Source: Phyto melanocephala
Lineage: Eukaryota; Arthropoda; Insecta; Diptera; Rhinophoridae
Assembly: GCA_941918925.1 (NCBI GenBank)
Contig: OW799233.1
Location: 58,964,841-59,028,840 of the forward strand
DNA length: 64,000 nucleotides
Direction: 5' to 3'
Below the pieces are notes generated by a model. That model saw only the letters and a program-made list of their open reading frames with translations, did no database searches and was not told the origin of the DNA. Within the stretch, counting starts at the first letter, position 1. Each line of letters starts with the position of its first letter. The translations under genes were made by a program, and so were the position numbers. Of the stretch, positions 6,061 to 64,000 are shown piece by piece.

Positions 6061-6544
6061 AGTGTGATGGTTTCTGATGAAAAAGCTTTTTTCCGTTCTA
6101 TTTGTGTACTGCAGCTTAAAAAAGGGTCACTGCTCAGAAATAACCTATTCAAGACATCTCGATTTGTATCGCTTCTGCTGAATTTCCTCGAAGAATTCGT
6201 ACGATATAATCGTAAGTCCCTATTTCTGGCCTTGGCAGCTTCTTCTGGCAATTAGATGGGATCCTGATACCTGGGTGCCCATATATTTTTTATGTACCTG
6301 TATTTATTTTTTGTAAACTTATTTTTGTGATTAATTCTTTTAATAAGTATTCTTATTAGGTACGTATGTATATTTATTTTTTAACAAATAATGTTTTGTA
6401 GAGCAGGTATATAAAAATATCTTTTATGGGGATGTGTGGGACATTCCCCTATAACTATTATCGATAATAAAGAATTTTTCAAATTTGTAATTATAGGCAG
6501 GTATTAACATTGTGAAGTGTCAAAAGTGATGTAATAATATTTAA
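6061..6544. other. Unassigned stretch before the copia element
   Basis: An open frame of about 80 codons on either strand (6003-6255) has no recognisable domain. From 6300 to 6540 the sequence is AT-rich and could include a degraded 5' LTR or leader of the copia element that follows. I could not define LTR ends or a primer-binding site. Confidence 0.35.
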
Positions 6545-22394: not shown

Positions 22395-23487
22395 CGTATG
22401 GACTCCAAAACGGCTAGACCGATTTTGATAAAATGTTCAGGGAATCTTCAGAATTTTTAGGCGGGTGACACTGTGAAGTCTGATTTTTGATTTTCGGTCC
22501 ACGGGCGGAGGGGGGTGGCAAAATCCAATTTTCATATTGCACCACCAATGACATATATATTTATTTTGTTTGTTTTTTAAATTTTTTTTTAAAGCCGTTG
22601 TCATGTTTTTCAAAACAAGATAACAAACTCTTAAATCGGTTGTGTAGTTCCGAAGATATTTACAAAAAACCTATGTTAATAATGATAATGAATATCAAAA
22701 TTTTAAAACTTTCGAAATGTTGCTCAAATGAGCAAATTCAATCGAAACTGCCCGGCAAATTAATCAAATACAAATCGATCCACACAGTAATGGATGATGA
22801 ACAAGCCGTCAATTATCTCACTGAATTTTTGAATTCATTGCAACCACCCGGAATGCCACCGCATGTACTAACATTAAAGGTTGGATCCCCGGTAATTCTT
22901 ATTCGCAACTTAAACGCACCAAAGTTGTGCAACGGAACCAGATTGACCATCAAAAACTGTTCACAAAATTTAATCGAGGCAACAATCATCGGTGACAAAT
23001 TCAAAGGCGAAGACGTACTTATTCCACGAATTCCGATGATTTCCAACGAATTACCATTACAATTCAAGCGGCTCCAATTCCCTTTGCGTCTTGCCTTTGC
23101 TATTGCCATCAACAAAGCACAAAGCCAATTCATGTTTTTCACACGGCCAGTTGTATGTAGCTTGCTCTCGAGTTGGCACGCTAAAAAATTTATACGTTTT
23201 TACACCAATTAAAAAAACAAAAACCATTGTCTCTCCGCTGGCCTTAAGATGAAGTAATAAATAAATATAATTTCCAATTTGCCTTAAATACATAAATTTC
23301 TTTTCAGATTGAGCCCATACCTACACCGTATCTAAGTTATTCTGTAAAAAAACTTTATGATAGGTACCTATTCCATGGATTTTTATTTGAAGGCCGTAAA
23401 TTTCGTTAAAAGCTCAATTTAATTCGTCTGGTTGTACAACACTAATGTCTGCTTAGGGCCAGCAACACGGACCGGGTCAGCTAGTAA
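22342..23487 (+). mobile_element. Internally deleted Helitron (Helentron-like)
   Basis: The 5' end TCTATATATATATATA, a TATG run and ATGGACTCCAAAACGGCTAG are typical of insect Helitrons. The 3' end GACCGGGTCAGCTAGT has the CTAG terminus. The interior keeps only the 5' leader and the last part of the RepHel gene. There is no target duplication, as usual for Helitrons. Confidence 0.85.
22640..23212 (+). pseudogene. Helitron RepHel helicase, C-terminal fragment (PIF1-like)
   Basis: The open frame ending at 23212 contains the PIF1/Helitron C-terminal helicase motifs: PPHVLTLKVGSPVILIRN, LCNGTRLTIKN, then PLQFKRLQFPLRLAFAIAIN and KAQSQ (motif VI region). Rolling-circle HUH nuclease and the ATP-binding motifs are missing. 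The first roughly 50 codons from 22487 derive from non-coding leader, so I place the real fragment from about 22640. The end diverges after KAQSQ by frameshift. Inactive remnant of the rolling-circle replication protein. Confidence 0.9.
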
Positions 23488-28179: not shown

Positions 28180-30351
28180 AAATCCATTTAAACCTATGAC
28201 GCTTTTGTTTTTTTCACTTTTGTTGTTTTGCTATGCATCTTTATAAAGATGAAACAAATTACGTTATGGTAATGTAAAAAATCATTGCATTTACTACAAA
28301 GTATAATATCCCGTTATAATTTGTTTGTGAGCATTTATTTAATGATATGTTACATTATATTAATGAGCAAATCATTATAGTTACTAATTTTACATTTTAT
28401 TTTTTCTCGTTGTTTTTTTATGAGTATTATTTCAGAGTATTGGTGCATTTGTAGTCGTATGAAACACATCTGTGTGAAATTTTGCATAATTATAACGACA
28501 GAGTGTCATTAAATTTTCGTTATATTTACGTGATTATTTGCAAAATCGTTAAAAAAGTTAACGTAAAATGACAAAAATTATGAAGATTTTCGTATCATTA
28601 ATGTAATATATAATAAAAGTTAACGTCCCAAATATTTAAATTTATTTTTCCCATAGCTACTTATTATTTCCCAGAACTCAGGAAATGCTAAATTAAAAAT
28701 TTGGCAATTCACAATTCCCACACTGTGCAATGCTTCAAATTTAGCACACATGCAAGTGTGTTATTTTACATTCAATTTTTTTTATTTACTTTCAATTTCT
28801 AGTGTGGCATATTTCCAGGAACTACGGAAATCACCGCACAAGCCAAGCTTACCTTTGGGAACGTTATTTACAAATTAATAAAAATGCTGACGATATGTCT
28901 AGACTCTTTTTCCCTCATTTTCATTTCTTTGTAATTTTAAGTTAAATATTTTTAGCAAGCAATGTAAAAAAATAATATAAAAAAGTATAACAAACAATAA
29001 AGATTATCATTATTAATCGAGCATTAAACAAGCGAATTATATTTTTTGAACAATTGTTTTATTAACTTATACTAGCATTTAACCCGCTACTTCGATAGAG
29101 CAGTTCTTACTATTTATTGAAAACTCAAGTTCTATTTATAATTTTTAAATATCTTTGGTTAAATTTATGAAAATTCGTATATCTGATTCAATTTACTTAG
29201 AAAAATAAACCTAAACCAAAATCAATGCTATTGAGTTTCAAAAATTAAGATTCATAAATTCAGAGTTTCCAAAAATGACCCTAAAAATAATAAAAGTAAC
29301 ATTTTTTCCTTCACTAAAACTTGCACTTGGTTTGTTATTACCTACATTCAGAATTCTATGTATACAAAATATAAAAAAAAAATCAGAAAAAGTAATTTTG
29401 GTCGTCCATAATATTAGGAGTTAGACCTCGGATCAAAAATTACTTATTTTAAGAATCCATGTTTACAAACGTAAAAATACAAAGAGAACAATAAAAATGC
29501 GAAAAGCCTTTTTTGTGTCTCCAATATCATTTAAATTCTTAAATTAAATCAACAATCCTTTATTTCACAATTTTAGCTTTATAAACGTAGAAAATACACA
29601 AAATCCTATTAAAATTCAGAAAAGTACCTTCTTGGTCACCCATAACATTTTCTGTCTCACCTTGAATCAAAAGTCCTTGATTGTACAATCGTATCTTCAT
29701 AAACGTAAAAAATACAAAAAGTACCATAAAAATTCCAAAAAGTACCTTTTTTGTCGGCTATAACATTTTTAGTCTTCCTAGAACTAGGGTTGCCATATCT
29801 ATTTAAAAAAAGAGGACACCAGCATAAAAAATGTAGGACATTTGTCCAAAACAGAGGACACATTCAAAACAATTTAATTTGATAAAATTTACGACGCCCT
29901 TTAAAACACAAAAACAAAATTTGTTTTTACGAAAAAACTTTATTTACAAAACTACAAACTGAACATATCATTATGATTTAATAGTTGAAAATAAAAACAA
30001 ACAAAAAACAACAAAAATTCATTGCATGCGTTATCGGGAATGTACACTTTTAAACATTTTACATATATTTTTCAACACTTCCAATTTGAGCCAATATATT
30101 ACCATTGCGTCTCTTCAAATATTTGTAAAACTCTAGGCAATCCATATCAAAATTATATACCCTTACTATATTTATACCCTTCACACAGTGAAAAAGGGTA
30201 TATATAGGTTTGTCATTCCGTGTGAAATTTCTACAATTTTGATTTCCGACCCCATAAAGTATATATTTTCTGAAAGCTTATGAATAGGGGAGTCGATTAA
30301 GCCCTGTCAGTCTGTCCGTGTGTATGTTGAAATCAACTTTTTGAAGCCCCC
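28180..30351. repeat. Tandem duplication, unit 1 (2.18 kb; empty site)
   Basis: 28182 on (ATCCATTTAAACCTATGACG) is repeated from 30361 at a period of 2179. Unit 1 contains an 850-bp anonymous AT-rich segment, the 3' part of a reverse Helitron-like repeat (29071-29784), a truncated hAT end (from 29785) and the first 178 bp of a hairpin element (30174-30351). The hairpin copy present at 30393-31231 of unit 2 is absent at 28212, which preserves the pre-insertion site. Confidence 0.9.
29785..30351. mobile_element. hAT MITE, left part only (duplicate of 32767-33334)
   Basis: Begins TAGGGTTGCCATA after CCTAGAAC. It is nearly identical to 32767 on and includes a truncated hairpin element from 30174. 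It is cut by the tandem-duplication junction at about 30352. Confidence 0.85.
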
Positions 30352-33340
30352 CGGATTAAAATCCATTTAAACCTATGACGCTTTTGTTTTTTTATACCCT
30401 TCACACAGTAAAAAAGGGTACATATAGGTTTGTCATTCCGTGTGAAATTTCTACAATTTTGATTTCCGACCCCATAAAGTATATATTTTCTGAAAGCTTA
30501 TGAATAGGGGAGTCGATTAAGCCCTGTCAGTCTGACCGTCTGTCCGTGTGTATGTTGAAATCAACTTTTTGAAGCCCCCCGACATCGCTTGGACTCGGGT
30601 GAGGTATTAAAATATCAGAAATATTCGGGAGTAGATCGGTATTGAAAATCAGAAACATCGGTACATAAACAACTGAGATATGAGCAAAAACCCACGACCA
30701 CCTCGATTTTTTTTTCACAAAAACAACATTACAACAACAACATACATACAAACGTGTATACTGGTTAGAGAAAACGTGGGATCGAAACCCAGCTGAGGCA
30801 AAAAAAATTTTTTTTATTTTTTTTATATTTTTTTTTTAATTTTTTTTTATTATTTTTTTATTTAATATATTATTTATATTTTTATTATTATTTTTTTTAA
30901 TTTTTTTTTAAATTTTTTTTTCAAATATTTTTTTTTGTTTTGTATTTATTATATATATTTTAATTATTTTTAAAATATATTTTTTTTTTTAATTTTTTTT
31001 TAAATTTTTTTTTTTTAATTTTTTTTTTTAATTTTTTTTTAAATTTTTTTTTACCATGTATACGTAAATTTATAATTTTACAATGGGATGTTTTTATATA
31101 TGTATGTTTTTATATGTATGTACGTATTTCATATGGGATGAATGGTGACACAAACTACTGTTATTGCATGACTACACGTTGTGAAGGGTATATAAGATTC
31201 GGCACGGCCGAATATAGCGCTTTTACTTGTTTTCGCTTTTGTTGTTTTGCTATGCATCTTTATGAAGATGAAATGACAAATTACGTTATGGTAATGTAAA
31301 AAATCATTGCATATACTACAAAGTATAAAATTATTTATTTTTTGGTAATATCCCGTTATAATTTGTTTGTGAGCATTTATTTAATGATATGTTACGTTAT
31401 ATTAATGACCAAATCATTATAGTTACTAATTTTACATTTTATTTTTTCTCGTTGTTTTTTTATGAGTATTATTTCAGAGTATTGGTGCATTTGTAGTCGT
31501 ATTAAACACATCTGTGTGAAATTTTGCATAATTATAACGACAGAGTGTCATTAAATTTTCGTTATATTTACGTGATTATTTGCAAAATCGTTAAAAAAGT
31601 TAACGTAAAATGACAAAAATTATGAAGATTTTCGTATCATTAATGTAATATATAATAAAAGTTAACGTCCCAAATATTTAAATTTATTTTTCCCATAGCT
31701 ACTTATTATTTCCCAGAAATCAGGAAATGCTAAATTAAAAATTTGGCAATTCACAATTCCCACACTGTGCAATGCTTCAAATTTAGCACACATGCAAGTG
31801 TGTTATTTTACATTCAATTTTTATTTACTTTCAATTTCTAGTGTGGCATATTTCCAGGAACTACGGAAATCACCACACAAGCCAAGCTTACCTTTGGGAA
31901 CGTTATTTACAAATTAATAAAAATGCTGACGATATGTCTAGACTCTTTTTCCCTCATTTTCATTTCTTTGTAATTTTAAGTTAAATATTTTTAGCAAGCA
32001 ATGTAAAAAAATAATATAAAAAAGTATAACAAACAATAAAGATTATCATTATTAATCGAGCATTAAACAAGCGAATTACATTTTTTGAACAATTGTTTTA
32101 TTAACTTATACTAGCATTTAACCCGCTACTTCGATAGAGCAGTTCTTACTATTTATTGAAAACTCAAGTTCTATTTATAATTTTTAAATATCTTTGGTTA
32201 AATTTATGAAAATTTGTATATCTGATTCAATTTACTTAGATTCATAATTTCCAAAAATGACCCTAAAAATAATAAAAGTAACATTTTTTCCTTCACTGAA
32301 ACTTCCACTTGGTTTGTTATTACCTACATTCAGAATTCTATGTATACAAAATATAAAAAAAAAATCAGAAAAAGTAATTTTGGTCGTCCATAATATTAGG
32401 AGTTAGACCTCGGATCAAAAATTACTTATTTTAAGAATCCATGTTTACAAACGTAAAAATACAAAGAGAACAATAAAAATGCGAAAAGCCTTTTTTGTGT
32501 CTCCAATATCATTTAAATTCTTAAATTAAATCAACAATCCTTTATTTCACAATTTTAGCTTTATAAACGTAGAAAATACACAAAATCCTATTAAAATTCA
32601 GAAAAGTACCTTCTTGGTCACCCATAACATTTTCTGTCTCACCTTGAATCAAAAGTCCTTGATTGTACAATCGTATCTTCATAAACGTAAAAAATACAAA
32701 AAGTACCATAAAAATTCCAAAAAGTACCTTTTTTGTCGGCTATAACATTTTTAGTCTTCCTAGAACTAGGGTTGCCATATCTATTTAAAAAAAGAGGACA
32801 CCAGCATAAAAAATGTAGGACATTTGTCCAAAACAGAGGACACATTCAAAACAATTTAATTTGATAAAATTTACGACGCCCTTTAAAACACAAAAACAAA
32901 ATTTGTTTTTACGAAAAAACTTTATTTACAAAACTACAAACTGAACATATCATTATGATTTAATAGTTGAAAATAAAAACAAACAAAAAACAACAAAAAT
33001 TCATTGCATGCGTTATCGGGAATGTACACTTTTAAACATTTTACATATATTTTTCAACACTTCCAATTTGAGCCAATATATTACCATCGCGTCTCTTCAA
33101 ATATTTGTAAAACTCTAGGCAATCCATATCAAAATTATATACCCTTACTATATTTATACCCTTCACACAGTGAAAAAGGGTATATATAGGTTTGTCATTC
33201 CGTGTGAAATTTCTACAATTTTGATTTCCGACCCCATAAAGTATATATTTTCTGAAAGCTTATGAATAGGGGAGTCGATTAAGCCCTGTCAGTCTGTCCG
33301 TGTGTTGGTTGAAATCAACTTTTTGAAGCCCCCCGACATC
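30352..33340. repeat. Tandem duplication, unit 2 (with hairpin insertion)
   Basis: Collinear with 28180-30351 except for the 839-bp hairpin element at 30393-31231 and small indels. For example, 28 bp around AAACCAAAATCAATGCTATT of unit 1 are missing near 32238. Identity is about 98 percent, so the duplication is recent compared with its contents. Confidence 0.9.
30393..31231 (+). mobile_element. Hairpin-ended element, full-length, with paired empty site
   Basis: TATACCCTTCACACAGT with inverted GGGTA, the CCCCATAAAGTATATATTTT block, and GAGATATGAGCAAAAACCCA. A 250-bp poly-T/A tract follows at about 30805-31055. It ends GAAGGGTATATAAGATTCGG, hairpin GCACGGCCGAAT, ATAGCGCTTTTACTTGTTTT. It is flanked by GCTTTTGTTTTTTT and CGCTTTTGTTGTTTTGC, which are contiguous (with small change) at 28200-28230. 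Confidence 0.9.
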
Positions 33341-44315: not shown

Positions 44316-45141
44316 CTAGCCAATCCCGGCGCGCGTTGCTACGCCCCTTCATGAATTTCAAGTGCAAGGCTAAAAACTATAACTTTTTCTTTATGAGCGT
44401 GGCACTGCCCACTTTTCTAATTACGAAACTGTATAGTCATGACAGCTCAATAAGTGTGCAAAGTTTCAGAAAAATCGGTCCAGTGTAAGTACCTCAAAAT
44501 GATACCTTTTTTTATGGGCGTGGCACTGCCCACTTTTCTAAATACGAAACTGTATAGTCATGACAACTCAATATGTGTGCAAGGTTTCAGAAAAATCGGG
44601 CCAGTGCAAGTACCTCAAAATTATATCCTTTTTTAATGGGCGTGGCACTGCCCACTTTTCTAATGACGAAAGTGTAAAGTCATGACAGCTCAGTATGTTT
44701 GCAAAGTTTCAGAAAATTCGGTCCAGTGCAAGTAGCTAAAACTGATAACTAATTTTTTATGGGCATGGCCCCGCCCACTTTTTCAATCACGAAATTATAA
44801 AGCCATGACTACTCAATATGTGTGCAAAGTTTCAGAAAAATCGGTCTAGTGCAAGTACCTCAAAATTAGGGGCGTGGCCCCGCCCACTTTTCTTATAACA
44901 AAGTTATTTAGTAATGACAGCTCGATATGTGTGCAAAGTTTCAGAAAAATCGGTCAAGTGCAAGTAGCTAAAAATGATAACTAATTTTTTATGGGAGTAT
45001 CCCCGCCCACTTTTTTCCACCCATAAACACTCACTCCCTGGTATGTGTACAACAACTTGCCAAAGTTTGAGTCCGATCGGTTTTACAGTTTCGGAGTCTA
45101 TAGCTAACACACACACACAGAGTTTCACTTTTATATCTATA
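44316..45141 (-). mobile_element. Non-autonomous Helitron, reverse copy 1
   Basis: The minus strand runs from TATAAAAGTGAAACTCTGTG through TAGCTATAGACTCCGAAACT to the CTAG end. The body is about six 115-bp units, each with GTGGGC.G.GCCACGCCC, TGCACTGGACCGATTTTTCT and GAAACTTTGCACACATAT. No ORF of its own; frames that look open are spaced by these units. Confidence 0.8.
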
Positions 45142-46003
45142 CTAGCCAAACCCGGCGCGCGTTGCTACGCCCCTTAATGAATCGAAATGCATTCTGAATT
45201 TTTATCGAATATCAAGTCTAAAAACCTAAAAATTATAATTTTTTATGGGCGTGGCATTGCCCACTTTTTTAATCACGAAATTGTAAAGTCATAATAGCTC
45301 AATATGTGTGCAAAGTTTCAGAAGAATCGGACCAGTGCAAGAACCTCAAAATTATAATTGTTTTTATGGGCGTGGCCCTGCCCACTTTTCTAATCACAAA
45401 ATCATAAGGTCATGATAGCTCAATATGTGTGCAAAGTTTCAGAAAAATCGGTACAGTGCAAGTACCTCCAAATGATACCTTTTTTTAATGGGCGTGGCAC
45501 TGCCCACTTTTCTAATGACGAAAGTGTAAAGTCATGACAGCTCAGTATGTTTGTAAACTTTCAGAAAATTCGGTCTAGTGCAAGCACCTCAAAATTATAA
45601 CTTTTTTTTATGGGCGTGGCCCCGCCCACTTTTTTAATCACGAAATTATAAAGTCATTACAGTTTAATATGTGTGCAAAGTTTCAGAAAAATCGGTCCAG
45701 TGCAAGTACCTCAATATTAAAACTTTTTTAGGGGCGTGGCCCCGCCCACTTTTCTGATCACGAAATTATTTAGTCATGACAGCTCGATATGTGTGCAAAG
45801 TTTCAGAAAAATCGGTCAAGTGCAAGTAGCTAAAACTGATAACTAATTTTTTATGGGCGTGGCCCCGCCCACTTTTTTTCACCCATTAACACTCCCTGGT
45901 ATGTGTACAACAACTTACCAAAGTTTGAGCCCGATCGGTTTTACAGTTTCGGAGTCTATAGCTAACACACACACACACAGAGTTTCACTTTTATATATAT
46001 AGA
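45142..46003 (-). mobile_element. Non-autonomous Helitron, reverse copy 2
   Basis: Same organisation. The 5' end TCTATATATATAAAAGTG is at 46003 (minus) and the CTAG end at 45142. It is the mirror image of the forward copy at 46951-47823. Confidence 0.85.
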
Positions 46004-46950: not shown

Positions 46951-47823
46951 TCTATATATATAAAAGTGAAACTCTGTGTGTGTGTGTGTGTGTGTTAGCT
47001 ATAGACTCCGAAACTGTAAAACCGATCGGGCTCAAACTTTGGTAAGTTGTTGTACACATACCAGGGAGTGTTAATGGGTGAAAAAAAGTGGGCGGGGCCA
47101 CGCCCATAAAAAATTAGTTATCAGTTTTAGCTACTTGCACTTGACCGATTTTTCTGAAACTTTGCACACATATCGAGCTGTCATGACTAAATAATTTCGT
47201 GATAAGAAAAGTGGGCGGGACCACGCCCCTAAAAAAGTTTTAATTTTGAGGTACTTGCACTGGACCGATTTTTCTGAAACTTTGCACACATATTGAGCTG
47301 TCATGGCTTTATAATTTCGTGATTGAAAAAGTGGGCGGGGCCACGCTCATAAAAAATTAGTTATCAGTTTTAGCTACTTGCACTGGACCGAATTTTCTGA
47401 AACTTTGCAAACATACTGAGCTGTCATGACTTTACACTTTCATCATTAGAAAAGTGGGCAGTGCCACGTCCATTAAAAAAAAGGTATCATTTTGAGGTAC
47501 TTGCACTGGACCGATTTTTCTGAAACTTTGCACACATATTGAGTTGTCATGACTATACAGTTTCGTATTTAGAAAAGTGGGAAGTGCCACGCCCATAAAA
47601 AAAGGTATCATTTTGAGGTACTTACACTGGGCCGATTTTTCTGAAACTTTGCACACTTATTGAGCTGTCATGACTATACAGTTTTGTAATTAGAAAAGTG
47701 GGCAGTGCCACGCTCATAAAGAAAAAGTTATAGTTTTTAGCCTTGCACTTGATATTCGATTAAAATTTAGAATGCGATTAAAATTCATGAAGGGGCGTAG
47801 CAACGCGCGCCGGGATTGGCTAG
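46951..47823 (+). mobile_element. Non-autonomous Helitron, forward copy A
   Basis: TCTATATATATAAAAGTGAA start and GGGATTGGCTAG end. (TG)n follows the start. Six subrepeat units. A mirror of 45142-46003. Confidence 0.85.
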
Positions 47824-48577
47824 TATGTATATAAAAGTGAAACTCTGTGTGTGTGTGTGTTAGCTATAGACTCCGAAACTGTAAAACCGATCGGGCTCAA
47901 ACTTTGGTAAGTTGTTGTACACAAACCAGGGAGTGTTTATTGGTGAAAAAAAGTGGGCGGAGCCACGCCCATAAAAATTAGTTATCAGTTTTAGCTACTT
48001 GCACTTGACCGATTTTTCTGAAACTTTGCACACATATCGAGCTGTCATGACTAAATAATTTCGTGATAAGAAAAGTGGGCGGGGCCACGCCCCTAAAAAA
48101 GTTTTAATTTTGAGGTACTTGCACTGGACCGATTTTTCTGAAACTTTGCTGTCATGCCTTTATAGTTTCGTGATTGAAAAAGTGGGCGGGGCTACGCCCA
48201 TAAAAAATTAGTTATCAGTTTTAGCTACTTGCACTGGACCGAATTTTCTGAAACTTTGCAAACATACTGAGCTGTCATGACTTTACACTTTCGTCATTAG
48301 AAAAGTGGGCAGTGCCACGCCCATTAAAAAAAAGGTATCATTTTGAGGTACTTGCACTGGACCGATTTTTCTGAAACTTTGCACACATATTGAGTTGTCA
48401 TGACTATACAGTTTTGTATTTAGAAAAGTGGGCAGTGCCACGCTCATAAAGAAAAAGTTATAGTTGTATTTTAATTTTTATGAACTTTTTTCAATTTGTA
48501 TTATATTTTAAATTTTTAAATTATAGGCTATAAGTTCAATGTGATAACGACAAGAATATTTTAAGGAAAAATTAGTC

Positions 48578-48650
48578 ATCCGATACTAGCTGAGTGGAAT
48601 GCATTTTCGAAACCAGCTACGGTTTCATCATCAGCACTCTTTTGATCAGA
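48578..48650 (-). ncRNA. Type I hammerhead ribozyme, unit 1
   Basis: The minus strand reads GAGTG, CTGATGA, T, GAAACC-loop-GGTTTC, GAAA, ATGCATTC, CACTC (core 48592-48639). Helix I is GAGUG/CACUC. An outer helix I pairs the segments at about 48579-48585 and 48645-48651. See the reference copy at 50731-50803 for the fold. Predicted cleavage is after the C of AUUC. It has never been tested, and one extra U lies between the core CUGAUGA and helix II. Confidence 0.7.
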
Positions 48651-49091
48651 ACTACAGGTGTTGTATGTAAATATCAACTATTTAACTCAGTAATGTATTG
48701 AAAATTGAAATAAAGAATTATTTGTTCTAATTGATTTCATGTTATATCAAATACATATCATTGAGTTAGTACGAAATTTACCAACATCTGTTTTTCCTGT
48801 ATTCTTTTTTGCACGTCATTACCACAGTTTTAATGTTTGCCTTTAGCTTAAGATGTCGCTAAAGCAATTTTTTTTTTTTCAATTATGCAGTTGTATTATA
48901 TATGTGTCACATGCTTTAAACAAGATGGTATTAGTTTTAACAATGTTCATTTTACACCAAGCCAATGTGTTTTTTTGTTGTATTTTAATTTTTATGAACT
49001 TTTTTCAATTTGTATTATATTTTAAATTTTTAAATTTTAGGCTATAAGTTCAATGTGATAACGACAAGAATATTTTAAGGAAAAATTAGTC

Positions 49092-49164
49092 ATCCGATAC
49101 TAGCTGAGTGGAATGCATTTTCGAAACCAGCTACGGTTTCATCATCAGCACTCTTTTGATCAGA
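49092..49164 (-). ncRNA. Type I hammerhead ribozyme, unit 2
   Basis: Same sequence as unit 1; core at 49106-49153 on the minus strand. Confidence 0.7.
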
Positions 49165-49601
49165 ACTACAGGTGTTGTATGTAAATATCAACTATTTAAC
49201 TCAGTAATGTATTGAAAATTGAAATAAAGAATTATTTGTTCTAATTGATTTCATGTTATATCAAATACATATCATTGAGTTAGTACGAAATTTACCAACA
49301 TCTGTTTTTCCTGTATTCTTTTTTGCACGTCATTACCACAGTTTTAATGTTTGCCTTTAGCTTAAGATGTCGCTAAAGCAATTTTTTTTCAATTATGCAG
49401 TTGTATTATATATGTGTCACATGCTTTAAACAAGATGGTATTAGTTTTAACAATGTTCATTTTACACCAAGCCAATGTGTTTTTTTGTTGTATTTTAATT
49501 TTTATGAACTTTTTTCAATTTGTATTATATTTTAAATTTTTAAATTTTAGGCTATAAGTTCAATGTGATAACGACAAGAATATTTTAAGGAAAAATTAGT
49601 C

Positions 49602-49674
49602 ATCCGATACTAGCTGAGTGGAATGCATTTTCGAAACCAGCTACGGTTTCATCATCAGCACTCTTTTGATCAGA
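49602..49674 (-). ncRNA. Type I hammerhead ribozyme, unit 3
   Basis: Same sequence as unit 1; core at 49616-49663 on the minus strand. Confidence 0.7.
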
Positions 49675-50111
49675 ACTACAGGTGTTGTATGTAAATATCA
49701 ACTATTTAACTCAGTAATGTATTGAAAATTGAAATAAAGAATTATTTGTTCTAATTGATTTCATGTTATATCAAATACATATCTTTGAGTTAGTACGAAA
49801 TTTACCAACATCTGTTTTTCCTGTATTCTTTTTTGCACGTCATTACCACAGTTTTAATGTTTGCCTTTAGCTTAAGATGTCGCTAAAGCAATTTTTTTTC
49901 AATTATGCAGTTGTATTATATATGTGTCACATGCTTTAAACAAGATGGTATTAGTTTTAGCAATGTTCATTTTACACCAAGCCAATGTGTTTTTTTGTTG
50001 TATTTTAATTTTTATGAACTTTTTTCAATTTGTATTATATTTTAAATTTTTAAATTTTAGGCTATAAGTTCAATGTGATAACGACAAGAATATTTTAAGG
50101 AAAAATTAGTC

Positions 50112-50184
50112 ATCCGATACTAGCTGAGTGGAATGCATTTTCGAAACCAGCTACGGTTTCATCATCAGCACTCTTTTGATCAGA
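50112..50184 (-). ncRNA. Type I hammerhead ribozyme, unit 4
   Basis: Same sequence as unit 1; core at 50126-50173 on the minus strand. Confidence 0.7.
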
Positions 50185-50730
50185 ACTACAGGTGTTGTAT
50201 GTAAATATCAACTATTTAACTCAGTAATGTATTGAAAATTGAAATAAAGAATTATTTGTTCTAATTGATTTCATGTTATATCAAATACATATCTTTGAGT
50301 TAGTACGAAATTTACCAACATCTGTTTTTCCTGTATTCTTTTTTGCACGTCATTACCACAGTTTTAATGTTTGCCTTTAGCTTAAGATGTCGCTAAAGCA
50401 ATTTTTTTTCCATTATGCAGTTGGCTTGGTGTAAAATGAACATTGTTAAAACTAATACCATCTTGTTTAAAGCATGTGACACATATATAATACAACTGCA
50501 TAATTGAAAAAAAATTGCTTTAGCGACATCTTAAGCTAAAGGCAAACATTAAAACTGTGGTAATGACGTGCAAAAAAGAATACAGGAAAAACAGATGTTG
50601 GTAAATTTCGTACTAACTCAATGATATGTATTTGATATAACATGAAATCAATTAGAACAAATAATTCTTTATTTCAATTTTCAATACATTACTGAGTTAA
50701 ATAGTTGATATTTACATACAACACCTGTAG

Positions 50731-50803
50731 TTCTGATCAAAAGAGTGCTGATGATGAAACCGTAGCTGGTTTCGAAAATGCATTCCACTCAGCTAGTATC
50801 GGA
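50731..50803 (+). ncRNA. Type I hammerhead ribozyme, inverted unit 5 (reference copy)
   Basis: Plus strand. Helix I: 50743-50747 GAGTG with 50786-50790 CACTC. Core: CTGATGA at 50748-50754. One extra T at 50755. Helix II: GAAACC 50756-50761 with GGTTTC 50768-50773, loop GTAGCT. GAAA at 50774-50777. Helix III: AAT/ATT around loop GC (50777-50784). Cleavage after C 50785. Outer helix I: TCTGAT 50732-50737 with ATCGGA 50798-50803 (one wobble) across an internal loop, as in natural hammerheads with loop-loop contacts. A very short self-complementary helix III (ATGCAT) is typical of retroelement hammerheads that work as dimers. Confidence 0.75.
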
Positions 50804-51240
50804 TGACTAATTTTTCCTTAAAATATTCTTGTCGTTATCACATTGAACTTATAGCCTATAATTTAAAAATTTAAAATATAATACAAATTGAAAAAAGTTC
50901 ATAAAAATTAAAATACAACAAAAAAACACATTGGCTTGGTGTAAAATGAACATTGTTAAAACTAATACCATCTTGTTTAAAGCATGTGACACATATATAA
51001 TACAACTGCATAATTGAAAAAAAATTGCTTTAGCGACATCTTAAGCTAAAGGCAAACATTAAAACTGTGGTAATGACGTGCAAAAAAGAATACAGGAAAA
51101 ACAGATGTTGGTAAATTTCGTACTAACTCAATGATATGTATTTGATATAACATGAAATCAATTAGAACAAATAATTCTTTATTTCAATTTTCAATACATT
51201 ACTGAGTTAAATAGTTGATATTTACATACAACACCTGTAG

Positions 51241-51313
51241 TTCTGATCAAAAGAGTGCTGATGATGAAACCGTAGCTGGTTTCGAAAATGCATTCCACTC
51301 AGCTAGTATCGGA
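51241..51313 (+). ncRNA. Type I hammerhead ribozyme, inverted unit 6
   Basis: Same as the 50731 copy; core at 51253-51300. Confidence 0.7.
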
Positions 51314-51495
51314 TGACTAATTTTTCCTTAAAATATTCTTGTCGTTATCACATTGAACTTATAGCCTATAATTTAAAAATTTAAAATATAATACAAAAGT
51401 TATAGTTTTTAGCCTTGCACTTAATATTCGATTAAAATTTAGAATGCGATTAAAATTCATGAAGGGGCGTAGCAACGCGCGCCGGGATTGGCTAG

Positions 51496-52361
51496 TAGAT
51501 ATATAAAAGTGAAACTCTGTGTGTGTGTGTGTGTGTTAGCTATAGACTCCGAAACTGTAAAACCGATCGGGCTCAAACTTTAGTAAGTTGTTGTACACAT
51601 ACCAGGGAGTGTTTATGGGTGAAAAAAAGTGGGCGGGGCCTCGCCCATAACAAATTAGTTATCAGTTTTAGCTACTTGCACTTGGCCGATTTTTCTGAAA
51701 CTTTGCACACATATCGAACTGTCATGACTAAAAAATTTCGTGATAAGAAAAGTGGGTGGGGCCACGCCCCTAAAAAAGTTAAAATTTTGAGGTACTTGCA
51801 CTGGACCGATTTTTCTAAAACTTTGCACACATATTAAGCTGTCATGACTTTATAATTTCGTGATTAAAAAAGTGGGCGGGCCACGCCCATAAAAAATTAG
51901 TTATCAGTTTTAGCTACTTGCACTACACCGATTTTTCTGGAACTTTGCACACATATTGAGTTGTCATGACTATACAGTTTCGTATTTAGAAAAGTGGGCA
52001 GTGCCACGCCCATAAAAAAAGGTATCATTTCGAGGTACTTGCACTGGACCGATTTTTCTGAAACTTTGCACACATATTGAGCTGTCATGACTATATAATT
52101 TCGTGATTAGAAAAGTGGGTAGGGCTAGGCCCATTAAAAAAGTTATAATTTTAAGATACTTTCACTGGACGGACTTTTCTGAAACTTTGCACACTTATTG
52201 AGCTGTCATTACTATACAGTTTCGTAATTAGAAAAGTGGGCAGTGCCACGCTCATAAAGAAAAGGTTATAGTTTTTAGCTTTGCACTTGATATTCGATTA
52301 AAATTTAGAATGCGATTAAAGTTCATGAAGGGGCGTAGCAACGCGCGCCGGGCTTTTCTAG
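51496..52361 (+). mobile_element. Non-autonomous Helitron, forward copy C
   Basis: Starts at the CTAG of copy B with TATATAAAAGTGAAACTCTG and ends CGCCGGGCTTTTCTAG. Subrepeat units as in the other copies, with a different order and more substitutions. A 104-codon frame at 51523 simply runs across the subrepeats. Confidence 0.8.
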
Positions 52362-53998
52362 TATATAGATAAAACGACGCTTTCAAATTTATTATCACTA
52401 AATAATTCGTTTAATGCTGGTCCAGATGAAATACCAAATTGCGTTCTAAAAAATTGTGCAGAAAATTTATGTTACCCGCTTACAGCTATCTTTAACAAAT
52501 CCATTAAATTAGGATACGTACCATTGATTTGGAAATTATCGTATATAATTCCGTTGTTTAAAAATGGAAGCAAAATTGAGATATCAAATTATCGTGGCAT
52601 TGCTAAGCTGAGTAATATTCCCAAACTTTTTGAAAAACTTTTAACTGATAATTTATACTATCAAATTTCTTCGATTTTGTCACCGTGCCAACATGGTTTT
52701 TGTAAACATCGCTCTACAACGACTAATATTTCGGAGCTAACTACTACAATAAATGATGGTTTTATAAATAATATGCAAACTGATGCTATCTACACAGATT
52801 TTAGTAAAGCTTTTGATAAGGTAAACCATATCTCTTGCTTAACAAATTGTCATTAATGGGATTTACGGATATGACAATAAAATGGTTAAGATCATACTTG
52901 TCTTTAAGAACTCAACAAGTTAAGTATGGAAGTGCTACGTCTAATGCTATCAAAGTTTCTTCTGGTGTTCCGCAAGGTAGCCACCTTGGTCCTATTTTAT
53001 TTACCTTATTCATAAACGATCTACCTTCAGTTATTCAGCACTCTAAAGTTTTGATGTATGCCAATGATGTCAAAATTTTTCGTTCTTCTAATAATCCCGA
53101 AGATCAACTTTTCCTTCAATCTGATATTGACAAATTGGTAAATTGGTGTGAAATCAACTTAATGGAGCTGAATATAAAAAAATGTAAGCATATGTCCTTT
53201 TTCAGAATTAAGAAATTGGATTTATTTTATTGCATAAATGAGTGTAAACTTGATAAAGTTCTGAATTTTCTTGATCTTGGTATTTTGCTTGATCACCAAT
53301 TAAATTTTCGTGACCATATTTCTTTAATTGTTAACAAAGCAAATGGTGTACTTGGATTTATGAAGAGGTGGTGCAAGGAATTTCTAGATCCTTATATTAC
53401 GAAACAATTATATTCATCGTTAGTTCAACCTATTCTAGAATATGGATCGATTATTTGGGATCCTTGCTATAATATTCATATTGATAGTATCGAGTCTGTA
53501 CAAAAGAAGTTTTTAATATTTTGTCTTCGTGGCCTTGGATGGAATTCGTTTTTACTACCTTCATACGAAAGCAGACTCTGTCTTATAAAATTACCAACTT
53601 TAAAAAGTCGTCGTTCAATGCTGAGTTTTTCTTTTGTGCTGGGCCTAATTCAAGGCGATATCGACTCAGAATTCCTGCTAAGTAAAATATCTTTTAATGT
53701 TCCAACCAGACCAACTCGAAATTTCCGTTTTATTAACTTAAAATACTATAGATCCAACTATGCTAATAATGATCCTCTTCGTCGGATAAGTGAAAACTTT
53801 AATAATTATTATCACCTTACTGGCCTAAATGAAAGTAAAGAAATTGTTAAAAGAAATATCATTTTATATTTAAATCGTTGAATTGTATAGAATATTATTT
53901 TATATATTTATAACCTTAATTTTGTTTTGTTATTTTACATACTTTAGTCTGTAAGGATTATTATCTATAGACAATAAATTAAATAAATAAAATAAAAG
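52362..53998 (+). pseudogene. LINE (CR1/jockey group), reverse-transcriptase part and 3' end
   Basis: Continues the 43117 LINE. NNSFNAGPDEIPNCVLKN precedes the RT domain. RT motifs in order are WKLSYIIPLFKNGSK and NYRGIAKLSNIPKLFEKL, then HGFCKHRSTTTNI and YTDFSKAFDKVNH (first catalytic Asp). After a one-base frameshift at about 52835 come SGVPQGSHLGPILFTLFIND and the catalytic loop LMYANDVKIF, where YADD has become YAND. GILLDHQLNFRDHI and the C-terminal domain follow to stop 53881. The 3' UTR ends ATAAATTAAATAAATAAAAT. The D-to-N change plus frameshifts make it inactive. Confidence 0.9.
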
Positions 53999-62604: not shown

Positions 62605-63921
62605 CAGGGTTGCCCATATTCGACGGACCCATGTTTTTTTTAAAAAAATCAAAGAAAAAAATAAAAATTTGGCGGTTGGCAATCTTAATCATTTAATTTT
62701 TTCCAAGTAGATTTGTTTACATCAATTTTTGAATATGATATCTCTCAAATGGCCGCCTCTGGCGTTGATGGCGTATTGTGCCCTTTTTGCAGCATTTTCC
62801 ATCGTTTTCGCCAACATTTCGGCCGGAATAGCGGCTATTTGTTCACGAATGTTGTCCTTGAGCTCTTCTAAGGTCCTTGGCTTGTTAACGTAAACCTTTG
62901 ACTTCAAATATCCCCACAAGAAGAAGTCAGGCGGCGTCAAATCGGGCGAACGCGGTGGCCAGTCCAAATCACCACTTTTCGACATCAAACGGCCCGGAAA
63001 CAAATTCTTCAGAAAATCGATTGTTATGCGACTTGTGTGCGGTGGAGCGCCGTCTTGTTGAAACCAGAACTGCCTCATACACTTTCGACGAATAATTGGC
63101 ATCACAAAATTGGTCATCATGTCGCGATAACGCTCCTGGTTGATGGTAACAGCATGGCCATTTTCATTTTGGAAGAAAAACGGCCCAATGACCGTTTTCG
63201 CACTAACGCCGCACCAAACTGTGACTTTTTCGTCATGAAGAGGCACTTCTTGAATCTCCTGAGGATTTTCAGTGGCGTAAATACGGCAATTTTGCTTATT
63301 TACGGTCCCATTCAATGTGAAATGGGCTTCATCGGACATGATAATTTTGTTCCAAAATTGCTCGTCATCTTCGGCCATTTCGATGACTCTTTGGGCCCAT
63401 TCCAATCGACGAGGCTTGTCCACAGGCAACAATCTTTGCGTCAATTGAATTTTGTACGGGAACAAATGCAAATCAACGCGAATAATCCGTTGTAAAGTGG
63501 ACCGAGCCATGCCCAACTGCTGAGAACGGCGTTTTTGGGATGTTCTTGGGGACCTCTCAACACTGGCTCGTACGGCAGCGATATTCTCGGCCGATCGCCT
63601 TGGTCGACTTTTATTTGGCCTCTTCGGATTAGAAAGAGCCTCACCAGTCGAAAATTTTTCGTATAAACGCTTAATGGTGTTCTTAGAAGGCGCACTTCTC
63701 ACATTTTTTAATATTTTAAAAGCACGTTGAGTTTTCACAATTGACTTGTTCTGTTGAATGTAAATTTCAACTATTTCAGAGCGCTCGCGTCTCGTGTATT
63801 GTTGCATGGTAAAAATCTGCTTGGACTGACGCTTCAAACGCGGTATGTCATTAAGCGATCTGACATCTCTGTCAAAAGTTATGGCGTTGCCAGATGGGTC
63901 CGTCGAATATGGGCAACCCTG
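62605..63921 (-). mobile_element. DD41D mariner transposon, apparently intact (1317 bp)
   Basis: 28-bp perfect TIRs CAGGGTTGCCCATATTCGAC... at both ends, and TA at 62603-62604 and 63922-63923. It contains one full-length transposase gene on the minus strand. Excision in silico restores the R1 LINE sequence (GATTGTACACAGTCTG). Confidence 0.95.
62722..63807 (-). CDS. DD41D mariner transposase, uninterrupted (361 aa)
   Basis: Cut-and-paste transposase acting on the 28-bp TIRs at TA targets. I choose ATG 63807 (MQQYTRRERSEIVEIYIQ) because the open frame upstream to 63960 crosses the TIR into LINE sequence. Residues 1-50 form a first helix-turn-helix (ending IKRLYEKFSTGEAL). An Arg/Pro linker (PNKSRPRRS) follows, with a second helix-turn-helix to about residue 110 (RSQQLGMARSTLQRII). 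The catalytic core has IIMSDEAHFTLNG (Asp 1), KVTVWCGVSAKTVIGPFFFQ, FWFQQDGAPPHTSRITIDFL (Asp 2) and RSPDLTPPDFFLWGYLKSKV (Asp 3), with 41 residues between Asp 2 and 3. It ends GGHLRDIIFKN. The length is normal for mariners (about 340-360). No stop or frameshift is seen, so it is a candidate active enzyme. Confidence 0.93.
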   Translation of the reverse strand: MQQYTRRERSEIVEIYIQQNKSIVKTQRAFKILKNVRSAPSKNTIKRLYEKFSTGEALSNPKRPNKSRPRRSAENIAAVRASVERSPRTSQKRRSQQLGMARSTLQRIIRVDLHLFPYKIQLTQRLLPVDKPRRLEWAQRVIEMAEDDEQFWNKIIMSDEAHFTLNGTVNKQNCRIYATENPQEIQEVPLHDEKVTVWCGVSAKTVIGPFFFQNENGHAVTINQERYRDMMTNFVMPIIRRKCMRQFWFQQDGAPPHTSRITIDFLKNLFPGRLMSKSGDLDWPPRSPDLTPPDFFLWGYLKSKVYVNKPRTLEELKDNIREQIAAIPAEMLAKTMENAAKRAQYAINARGGHLRDIIFKN

Positions 63922-64000
63922 TACACAGTCTGATATAGATTCGGTGGTGGAGAAACTCACCGATACTCTTGTGGCGAGTTATAGGGCGGCATGTTCATTA

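Follow-up and report, generated by a model that had tools for sequence, protein, structure and literature searches.

A hammerhead-bearing element without its own gene in the fly Phyto melanocephala, with an insertion anatomy resembling that of Penelope elements

Penelope elements are known to carry minimal hammerhead ribozymes (PMC6155905). Passages on their insertion describe head-to-head pseudo-long terminal repeats (pLTRs), an 8-10 bp target duplication and an optional 31-bp tail on one inverted pLTR (PMC3846280), together with a protein that cleaves and extends both strands, reverse transcription starting internally within a stem loop (PMC11167929). Animal retrozymes of the non-LTR kind, as set out in passages of PMC7229834, are non-autonomous, with AT-rich short tandem units and one type I hammerhead each; they occur in thousands of copies with target duplications and co-resident Penelopes, their RNAs measure ~170-400 nt (repeats 150-450 bp), and retrozyme-like repeats of insects are mentioned there in general terms. 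The element described here lies in a stretch of 64,000 nucleotides (hereafter the window; C1:58964841-59028840) on contig OW799233.1 of the rhinophorid fly Phyto melanocephala, whose searched assembly (GCA_941918925.1) comprises 740 Mb in 9 contigs. Block 48466-51394 of the window belongs to a mobile element that is very abundant and lacks a gene of its own; it is one copy of this element and reads as a single, recent insertion of a retroelement lacking an open reading frame (ORF). It is very probably a non-autonomous element inserted by Penelope machinery and working like an animal retrozyme, a reading carried by four direct observations: the insertion anatomy, a shared hairpin motif, a shared peculiarity of the hammerhead and the abundance of Penelope reverse transcriptases (RTs) in the genome.

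The element resembles members of the Penelope/Poseidon clade (the resident L050, rotifer Penelope in PMC3846280 and PAc in PMC11167929, as far as the passages describe them) in its type I hammerhead with minimal helix III within a repeated non-coding unit, the extra nucleotide after CUGANGA, the hairpin and tail 3' of the hammerhead, the tandem and head-to-head arms, the short target duplications and the one-sided tail. It is not a Penelope element, because it has no ORF. Its helix I is also much longer (5 bp, an internal loop and an outer helix of ~6 bp, against 2-4 bp in the resident Penelopes), its helix III is AAUGCAUU rather than AUAU, and its target duplications span 11-17 bp, compared with the 8-10 bp described for rotifer elements. 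All the retrozyme traits listed above recur here except size: the units of 499-583 bp lie outside the published range. The atypical helix III, the extra U and the clear Penelope insertion signature likewise set the element apart from animal retrozymes, and the differences among its units speak against one circle as the template. Newt satellite hammerheads (PMC6155905, in part) also have a short helix III in tandem units and are expected to work better as dimers, whereas the present element is a dispersed retroelement with insertion footprints and an extra core nucleotide. The Schistosoma W elements, in passages of PMC8490949, are hammerhead repeats behaving as transcribed, putatively mobile elements; the element of the window differs in sequence and genome, and has a head-to-head, one-tail signature that is not among the features in those passages. 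No such element in a fly is evident from titles and abstracts of the open-licence literature, a scope outside which many journals lie.

Insertion block and its genome-wide family

The block fills exactly the gap between two 13-bp AAAAGTTATAGTT repeats (Table 1). Inside it, the two arms join head-to-head near 50421-50423, where a BLAST of the unit has them overlap by ~3 nt, and the block is bounded on either side by a 3' end of the unit (left ~499, right 467 in unit positions). The tandem units are ~99% identical, with 27% guanine plus cytosine. From one hammerhead start to the next, the distances are 514, 510 and 510 bp along the minus arm and 510 bp along the plus arm; the 514 spacing is the outermost left one, where a T run is longer. 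No open frame of at least 110 aa is present between 46832 and 51499. The motif CTGATGATGAAACC-GTAGCT-GGTTTCGAAA occurs in six exact copies, four minus (48605-48634, 49119-49148, 49629-49658, 50139-50168) and two plus (50748-50777, 51258-51287). An earlier note, made from the letters of the window, had described six hammerheads in a 510-bp tandem and inverted array at 48466..51394; the copies bear out the array, and its limits coincide with those of the insert.

A 19-nt core of the motif, GAGTGCTGATGATGAAACC, is found at 6,524 places in the genome with at most one mismatch (3,241 plus 3,283), and the reversed pattern at none. With six identical copies in the window and this genome-wide count, chance is excluded as the source of the motif. 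The loose pattern CTGATGAN{3,30}GAAA, which has 6 window matches against a shuffle mean of 1.00, is weak by itself because 1 of 100 shuffles also gave 6. The first 100 core places were listed; all are on C1 and dispersed along it. Among them, nine same-strand neighbours stand in tandem, spaced 499-583 bp, and the opposite-strand neighbours within 2.5 kb form seven head-to-head pairs and no tail-to-tail pair; one of the seven (locus L018) links units from different subfamilies and could represent two insertions. Subfamily units measure 499-500, 509-511, 556 and 583 bp at the listed places, 563 bp in L045 and 571 bp in L037. The subfamilies differ outside the hammerhead as well as in unit length: alignment to the unit of the window is confined, in L003 and in a single L036 arm, to unit positions 315-382, which are the hammerhead. 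Forty regions and eight short loci of the core search were fetched, and a core search over the fetched loci and the window gave 83 rows, partial matches and a double-counted L031 site included. The units of L030 and L032 are equal at all compared positions (insertions ignored; lengths 1 nt apart), and some copies of the element are therefore young.

Ordinary satellite DNA or an assembly artefact is an extremely improbable account of these data. The ~99% identity of the tandem units would suit it; the number and dispersal of the places, the target duplications, the empty site, the clustered 3' ends and the head-to-head arms all tell against it. Growth of a satellite by unequal exchange is ruled out by the target duplications together with the empty site.

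Insertion ends, 3' hairpin and resident Penelope elements

Thirteen two-armed elements were compared (the window, L014, L030, L031, L033, L034, L035, L036, L037, L038, L040, L045 and L046). L018, with units of different subfamilies on its two strands, was left out; some second arms are very short, and part of the loci were checked for such arms. Since the second batch of loci was picked to include clusters, its share of two-armed elements is not representative. A target duplication flanks 11 of the 13, measuring 12-17 bp by exact repeat (11-13 bp in the window), the other two being L037 and L040. In 12 of the 13, one arm alone is tailed, and one arm stops inside the loop of a hairpin while the other stops just 3' of its stem. 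At an arbitrary p = 0.5 per element, a single tail in 12 of 12 corresponds to 2.4e-4. The tail is ~33 nt long in the subfamily of the window. This anatomy matches the published description of Penelope elements and agrees with a protein that works on both strands from an internal start.

The hairpin lies 3' of the hammerhead and has the form GAACU(U)-nAGCC-loop-AGUUC in copies of the element; the last plus unit of the window ends within its loop. Penelopes of the same genome carry GAUCUU...AAGAUC (L050), GAUCU...AGAUC (L051), ACCUU...AAGGU (L059) and GACCUU...AAGGUC (L061). Six element copies and four Penelopes, all hand-chosen, were aligned; at the third pair of the stem, six rows have AU, two have CG and two have UA, and no row has it broken. 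Hairpin cells are paired in 88.6% of cases, against at most 47.1% with the strands slid, a difference favoured by the stem having been read from the same sequences, and none of 500 shuffles attains the covariation score. The motif is present in five of the seven Penelope loci scanned, L061 and L062 being one element. In 122 kb of background, on both strands and with the element and its margins excluded, it is seen once, with one more in the excluded margin. The element has the hammerhead and 3' stem-loop arrangement of a Penelope pLTR.

Penelope elements are themselves abundant. A composed RT query of Penelope type has at least 150 genome matches at E<=1.9e-32 (150 scored of 1000 first-look candidates). 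Open frames of 838-859 aa are present in 29 of these 150 rows, and some neighbourhoods are tandem or head-to-head. Four RT matches at C3:6.155-6.167 Mb are an example of clustered Penelopes. L050 (1-3701) spans one Penelope period, with an RT frame ending in a GIY-YIG-like C-terminus, 523 non-coding bases and the next frame. Pfam gives RVT_1 at 6.4e-9 and, below its cut-off, GIY-YIG at 5.9e-4 (20.5 bits against 22.6). L050 has 413 homologues, and the named ones among the 120 listed belong to flies (Haematobia, Musca, Lucilia, Calliphora, Stomoxys, Eurosta, Rhagoletis and Episyrphus). A genome scan with the GIY-YIG family at E<=0.001 yields one match, a 182-aa open frame that we take to be Slx1 beside MED31; the scan is no evidence of absence, because the nuclease of L050 scores under the family cut-off.

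The non-coding flanks of eight Penelopes (L050-L057), out of at least 150, were read. Seven contain a minimal hammerhead, that of L054 being cut at the motif and completed via L061 and L062. Of six further flanks, three (L059, L061 and L062) come from elements that are in the count already, and no hammerhead was seen in the other three (L058, L060 and L063). The hammerheads fall into six sequence types (L050 with L053, L051, L054, L055, L056 and L057) with a stem II of 3-7 bp. In each of the six types, an additional A or U separates CUGANGA from stem II, which makes the extra U of the window motif a trait in common with the resident Penelopes. The earlier note had offered a Penelope-derived element or a retrozyme. 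What is supported of this is mobilisation by Penelope machinery, to which the target duplications, the head-to-head arms, the one-sided tail and the shared hairpin and extra-nucleotide hammerhead point. The adjoining Penelope RT for which it had proposed to look was not seen: six RT and nuclease motif strings, searched in the window and L001-L049, gave nothing reading as Penelope, the many Penelope RTs lying elsewhere in the genome.

Several observations weigh against insertion by Penelope machinery. The hairpin has just one doubly changed pair, a number matched in 434 of 500 shuffles, and its innermost pair is unformed in five of the ten rows. Its single-sequence shuffle tests are weak (P 0.01-0.39), which leaves the motif common to both kinds of element and a single covarying pair as the basis for the hairpin. 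In two of the seven Penelope loci scanned, L055 and L056, the 3' arm of the hairpin is missing. L037 is an exception to the one-tail rule: its left arm is tailed and its right arm stops at the hammerhead. Among the single-arm loci, a repeat of more than 9 bp that is not poly-A is found in just 2 of 15 (L021 and L011). L052, which resembles L054 up to the motif, has no hammerhead in 801 bases, and none of the eight non-coding flanks holds this hammerhead sequence or a 510-bp unit.

The last of these points bears on a different origin, in which the arrays would be solo pLTRs of an unsampled autonomous Penelope that still has this hammerhead, the ORF having been lost. The non-coding stretch between frames in L050 is similar in length, the order of hammerhead, hairpin and tail is identical, and the sampled flanks are eight of at least 150. 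The sampled Penelope types, however, have neither the long helix I nor this sequence, and the existence of several subfamilies, each with its own unit length, points to a long history without an ORF. A weak point in the same direction, as both sets are parts of larger ones, is that of the eight Penelope RT places listed for C1 below 52.7 Mb, none lies within 12 kb of any of the 100 listed hammerhead places. We regard the solo-pLTR origin as unlikely.

Hammerhead fold and surroundings of the block

The hammerhead has the core CUGANGA ... GAAA, three helices and an open helix I, as in type I. The core is atypical in that a single additional U separates CUGAUGA from stem II; stem II does not directly follow A9. 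Insertions of 1-2 nt between CUGAnGA and the adjoining stems occur in known hammerhead alignments, according to passages of PMC10085705. The helix III segment is palindromic and, as read from its letters, can self-pair between two units; passages of PMC6155905 describe type I hammerheads that are dimeric and whose helix III is elongated.

In a hand-chosen alignment of ten divergent copies, standard pairs fill 97.1% of the paired cells of the three helices, against at most 50% with the strands slid. One outer helix-I pair is A-U in two copies, C-G in two, U-A in two and U-G in one, and is unpaired in three; six more pairs vary on one side, by wobble. The shuffle control is of moderate strength: in 500 shuffles, the count of doubly changed pairs is reached 430 times and the covariation score 11 times. 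Helix II is near-invariant, with four of its six pairs never varying, and the 5' strands of helices I and II are biased to conservation because the search that gave these copies used a 19-mer lying within the motif. Nine of the ten copies keep the catalytic core, the altered row being E2_L032; elsewhere G12 is lost in L005 and L016, and deletions affect L010, L011, L015 and one L031 unit. The type I fold put forward in the earlier note is borne out by the pairing and the outer helix-I covariation, while the extra U, which it had written as '(T)', had passed without comment. Uncompensated drift of paired bases, which it had named as a sign against the fold, is not the rule in the ten copies, where pairs are mostly preserved through wobble or compensation.

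The covariance-model check proposed in the same note came out negative. No Rfam hammerhead model matches the window at gathering or at E<=5, or one 131-nt stretch of it at E<=10. This miss is not decisive, since four resident Penelope loci (L051, L055, L059 and L061) have hammerheads that the models likewise fail to match; the models seem not to cover this kind of hammerhead. Rfam matches resembling small nucleolar RNAs at E>1 were set aside as noise. Folding energies speak neither for nor against a hammerhead. The lowest-energy monomer fold is another structure (-15.9 against -12.4 kcal/mol), which discards monomer energy as proof, and the stretch is no stabler than shuffles (z -0.66). A possible AGCU/AGCU kissing contact between loop II and internal loop I would pair in 85% of cells and has no covariation.

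These data also bear on a reading in which the motif is kept as an element of Penelope RNA recognition or folding and has lost cleavage. The extra core nucleotide, the Rfam misses, the stabler non-hammerhead fold, the sampled copies that cross the site uncut, the barely varying sequence of helix II and the core bases lost in some copies would all suit it. So would the anole Penelope, for which a passage of PMC11167929 reports that RNA-sequencing reads starting or ending at the presumed site were undetected. Set against this are the core kept in nine of ten copies, the pairs mostly maintained by wobble or compensation, the known insertions beside CUGAnGA and a palindromic helix III that fits dimeric cleavage. 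This reading seems somewhat unlikely to us.

Table 1. Features of the insertion block and its target in the window.
Feature	Position	Strand	Remark
Paralogous empty site agaaaaagttatagtttttagcc, unbroken, within host repeat	47720..47742	.	read from sequence; repeat family computed
Left target-site duplication AAAAGTTATAGTT	48453..48465	.	11-13 bp; first A's may be the element's own
Left arm	48466..50423	-	~3.9 units by BLAST of unit; 3' end at 48466 bears tail
One-sided 3' tail, left arm only	48466..48495	-	unit positions from ~468
Complete 3' hairpin GAACTT...AAGTTC, outermost left unit	48482..48537	-	proposed reverse-transcription start signal
Hammerhead 1	48576..48649	-	
Hammerhead 2	49090..49163	-	
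Hammerhead 3	49600..49673	-	
Hammerhead 4	50110..50183	-	
Right arm	50421..51394	+	~1.9 units by BLAST; 3' end short, tail-less
Hammerhead 5	50733..50806	+	predicted cleavage after ATGCATTC
Complete 3' hairpin, first plus unit	50845..50900	+	
Hammerhead 6	51243..51316	+	
Right target-site duplication AAAAGTTATAGTT	51395..51407	.	

The host repeat around the block looks Helitron-like, judged from its CTAGT end, and has internal repeats of 121-123 bp. This minisatellite occupies 44379-45876, 47082-48465 and 51625-52287 of the window, and a TATATATAAAAGTGAAACTCTGTGTGTG stretch resembling the same repeat stands at the end of L052. A Pif1 2B domain (PF21530, 4e-17) at 22484-23212 (+) is a likely Helitron helicase remnant. 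An endonuclease frame of the long interspersed nuclear element (LINE) type (PF14529, 43216-43992) and an RT frame (52362-53881, with PF00078 in 52820-53878) lie ~8 kb apart. The hammerhead element, a frame resembling a transposase and Helitron-like repeats fill the space between them, probably as nested insertions. A 418-aa open frame at 62722-63978 (-) resembles a mariner/Tc1-type transposase by eye, Pfam yielding DUF4817 only. A 118-bp array appears with equal score at 29547-29769 and 32529-32751, ~2,982 bp apart, and T-rich arrays near 30808 and 33546 are likewise paired, which together make a local duplication likely.

Template RNA and a proposed insertion rule

The 3' ends of the units lie ~100-135 nt downstream of the predicted cleavage site, and the sampled copies continue through the site. 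BLAST ends show no multi-unit arm starting exactly at it, the arm of L032 starting ~12 nt past it; because copies were found by their hammerhead, a copy beginning right at the site would have escaped notice unless it had several units. Variants in the left arm of the window are ordered: at alignment column 443, unit 1 has T and units 2-4 have A, whereas at column 206 the change comes one unit later, with T in units 1-2 and A in the other two, units 3-4. The outermost (3'-most) unit of L034 and L035 is of a distinct kind common to both, 99.1% identical between the two elements and 97.2-97.8% like inner units. Ordered variants and copies that run through the site together favour, as template, a long linear RNA of non-identical units, uncut when copied, over a 510-nt circle. 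For the same reasons, cleavage of the multimer as a step before insertion appears weakened. The right arm of L037 (L037:4222-4271) ends ...AAAATGCATT, one base short of the predicted cleavage site, and is possibly a copy of the 3' end of a cleaved RNA or the result of a later deletion.

In a classical animal (non-LTR) retrozyme, the multimer would be cut, the 510-nt monomer circularised by transfer RNA ligase and the circle used as insertion template, repeated laps of the RT producing the tandem units. Short AT-rich tandem repeats, a type I hammerhead and target duplications fit the animal retrozymes in the passages of PMC7229834, a circle would explain copies that cross the site although their 3' end lies well downstream, and a palindromic helix III suits dimeric cleavage. 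Laps on one circle would give identical units, yet the left-arm variants are ordered and the outermost unit of L034 and L035 differs from the inner ones. We hold this route to be quite unlikely; a circle with template switching between circles is possible.

Insertion by Penelope machinery, the preferred reading, may proceed as follows. Resident Penelope-like elements would supply the RT and the GIY-YIG nuclease, and a multimeric transcript would be bound at the 3' hairpin, the putative recognition signal. The nuclease would make a staggered cut of ~11-17 bp in AT-rich DNA, and both cut ends would prime reverse transcription: one at the loop site, leaving the short end, and the other just 3' of the hairpin stem, leaving the long end with its tail. 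The two complementary DNAs would then join 5' end to 5' end, forming a head-to-head array between target duplications. The hammerhead would cut RNA after or beside transposition, as a dimer of neighbouring units, a mode suggested by its palindromic helix III. We propose, tentatively and at somewhat less than an even chance, that animal non-autonomous elements with hammerheads parasitise Penelope machinery in general through one hairpin with two start sites, one per DNA strand, and move as uncut linear multimers, cleavage and circles being a side path or a brake and not an intermediate.

A review puts Penelope elements, along with Terminons, no higher than likely candidates for the mobilisation of animal retrozymes (passages of PMC7761336). 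Here, one genome holds both an abundant hammerhead element and abundant Penelopes with long ORFs, and the two share three peculiarities, namely the extra core nucleotide, the hairpin and the one-sided tail, turning the candidate into a testable pair. One tail per insertion, with the two ends flanking the 3' strand of the hairpin, suggests a simple rule that Penelope insertion may follow: one start site per DNA strand.

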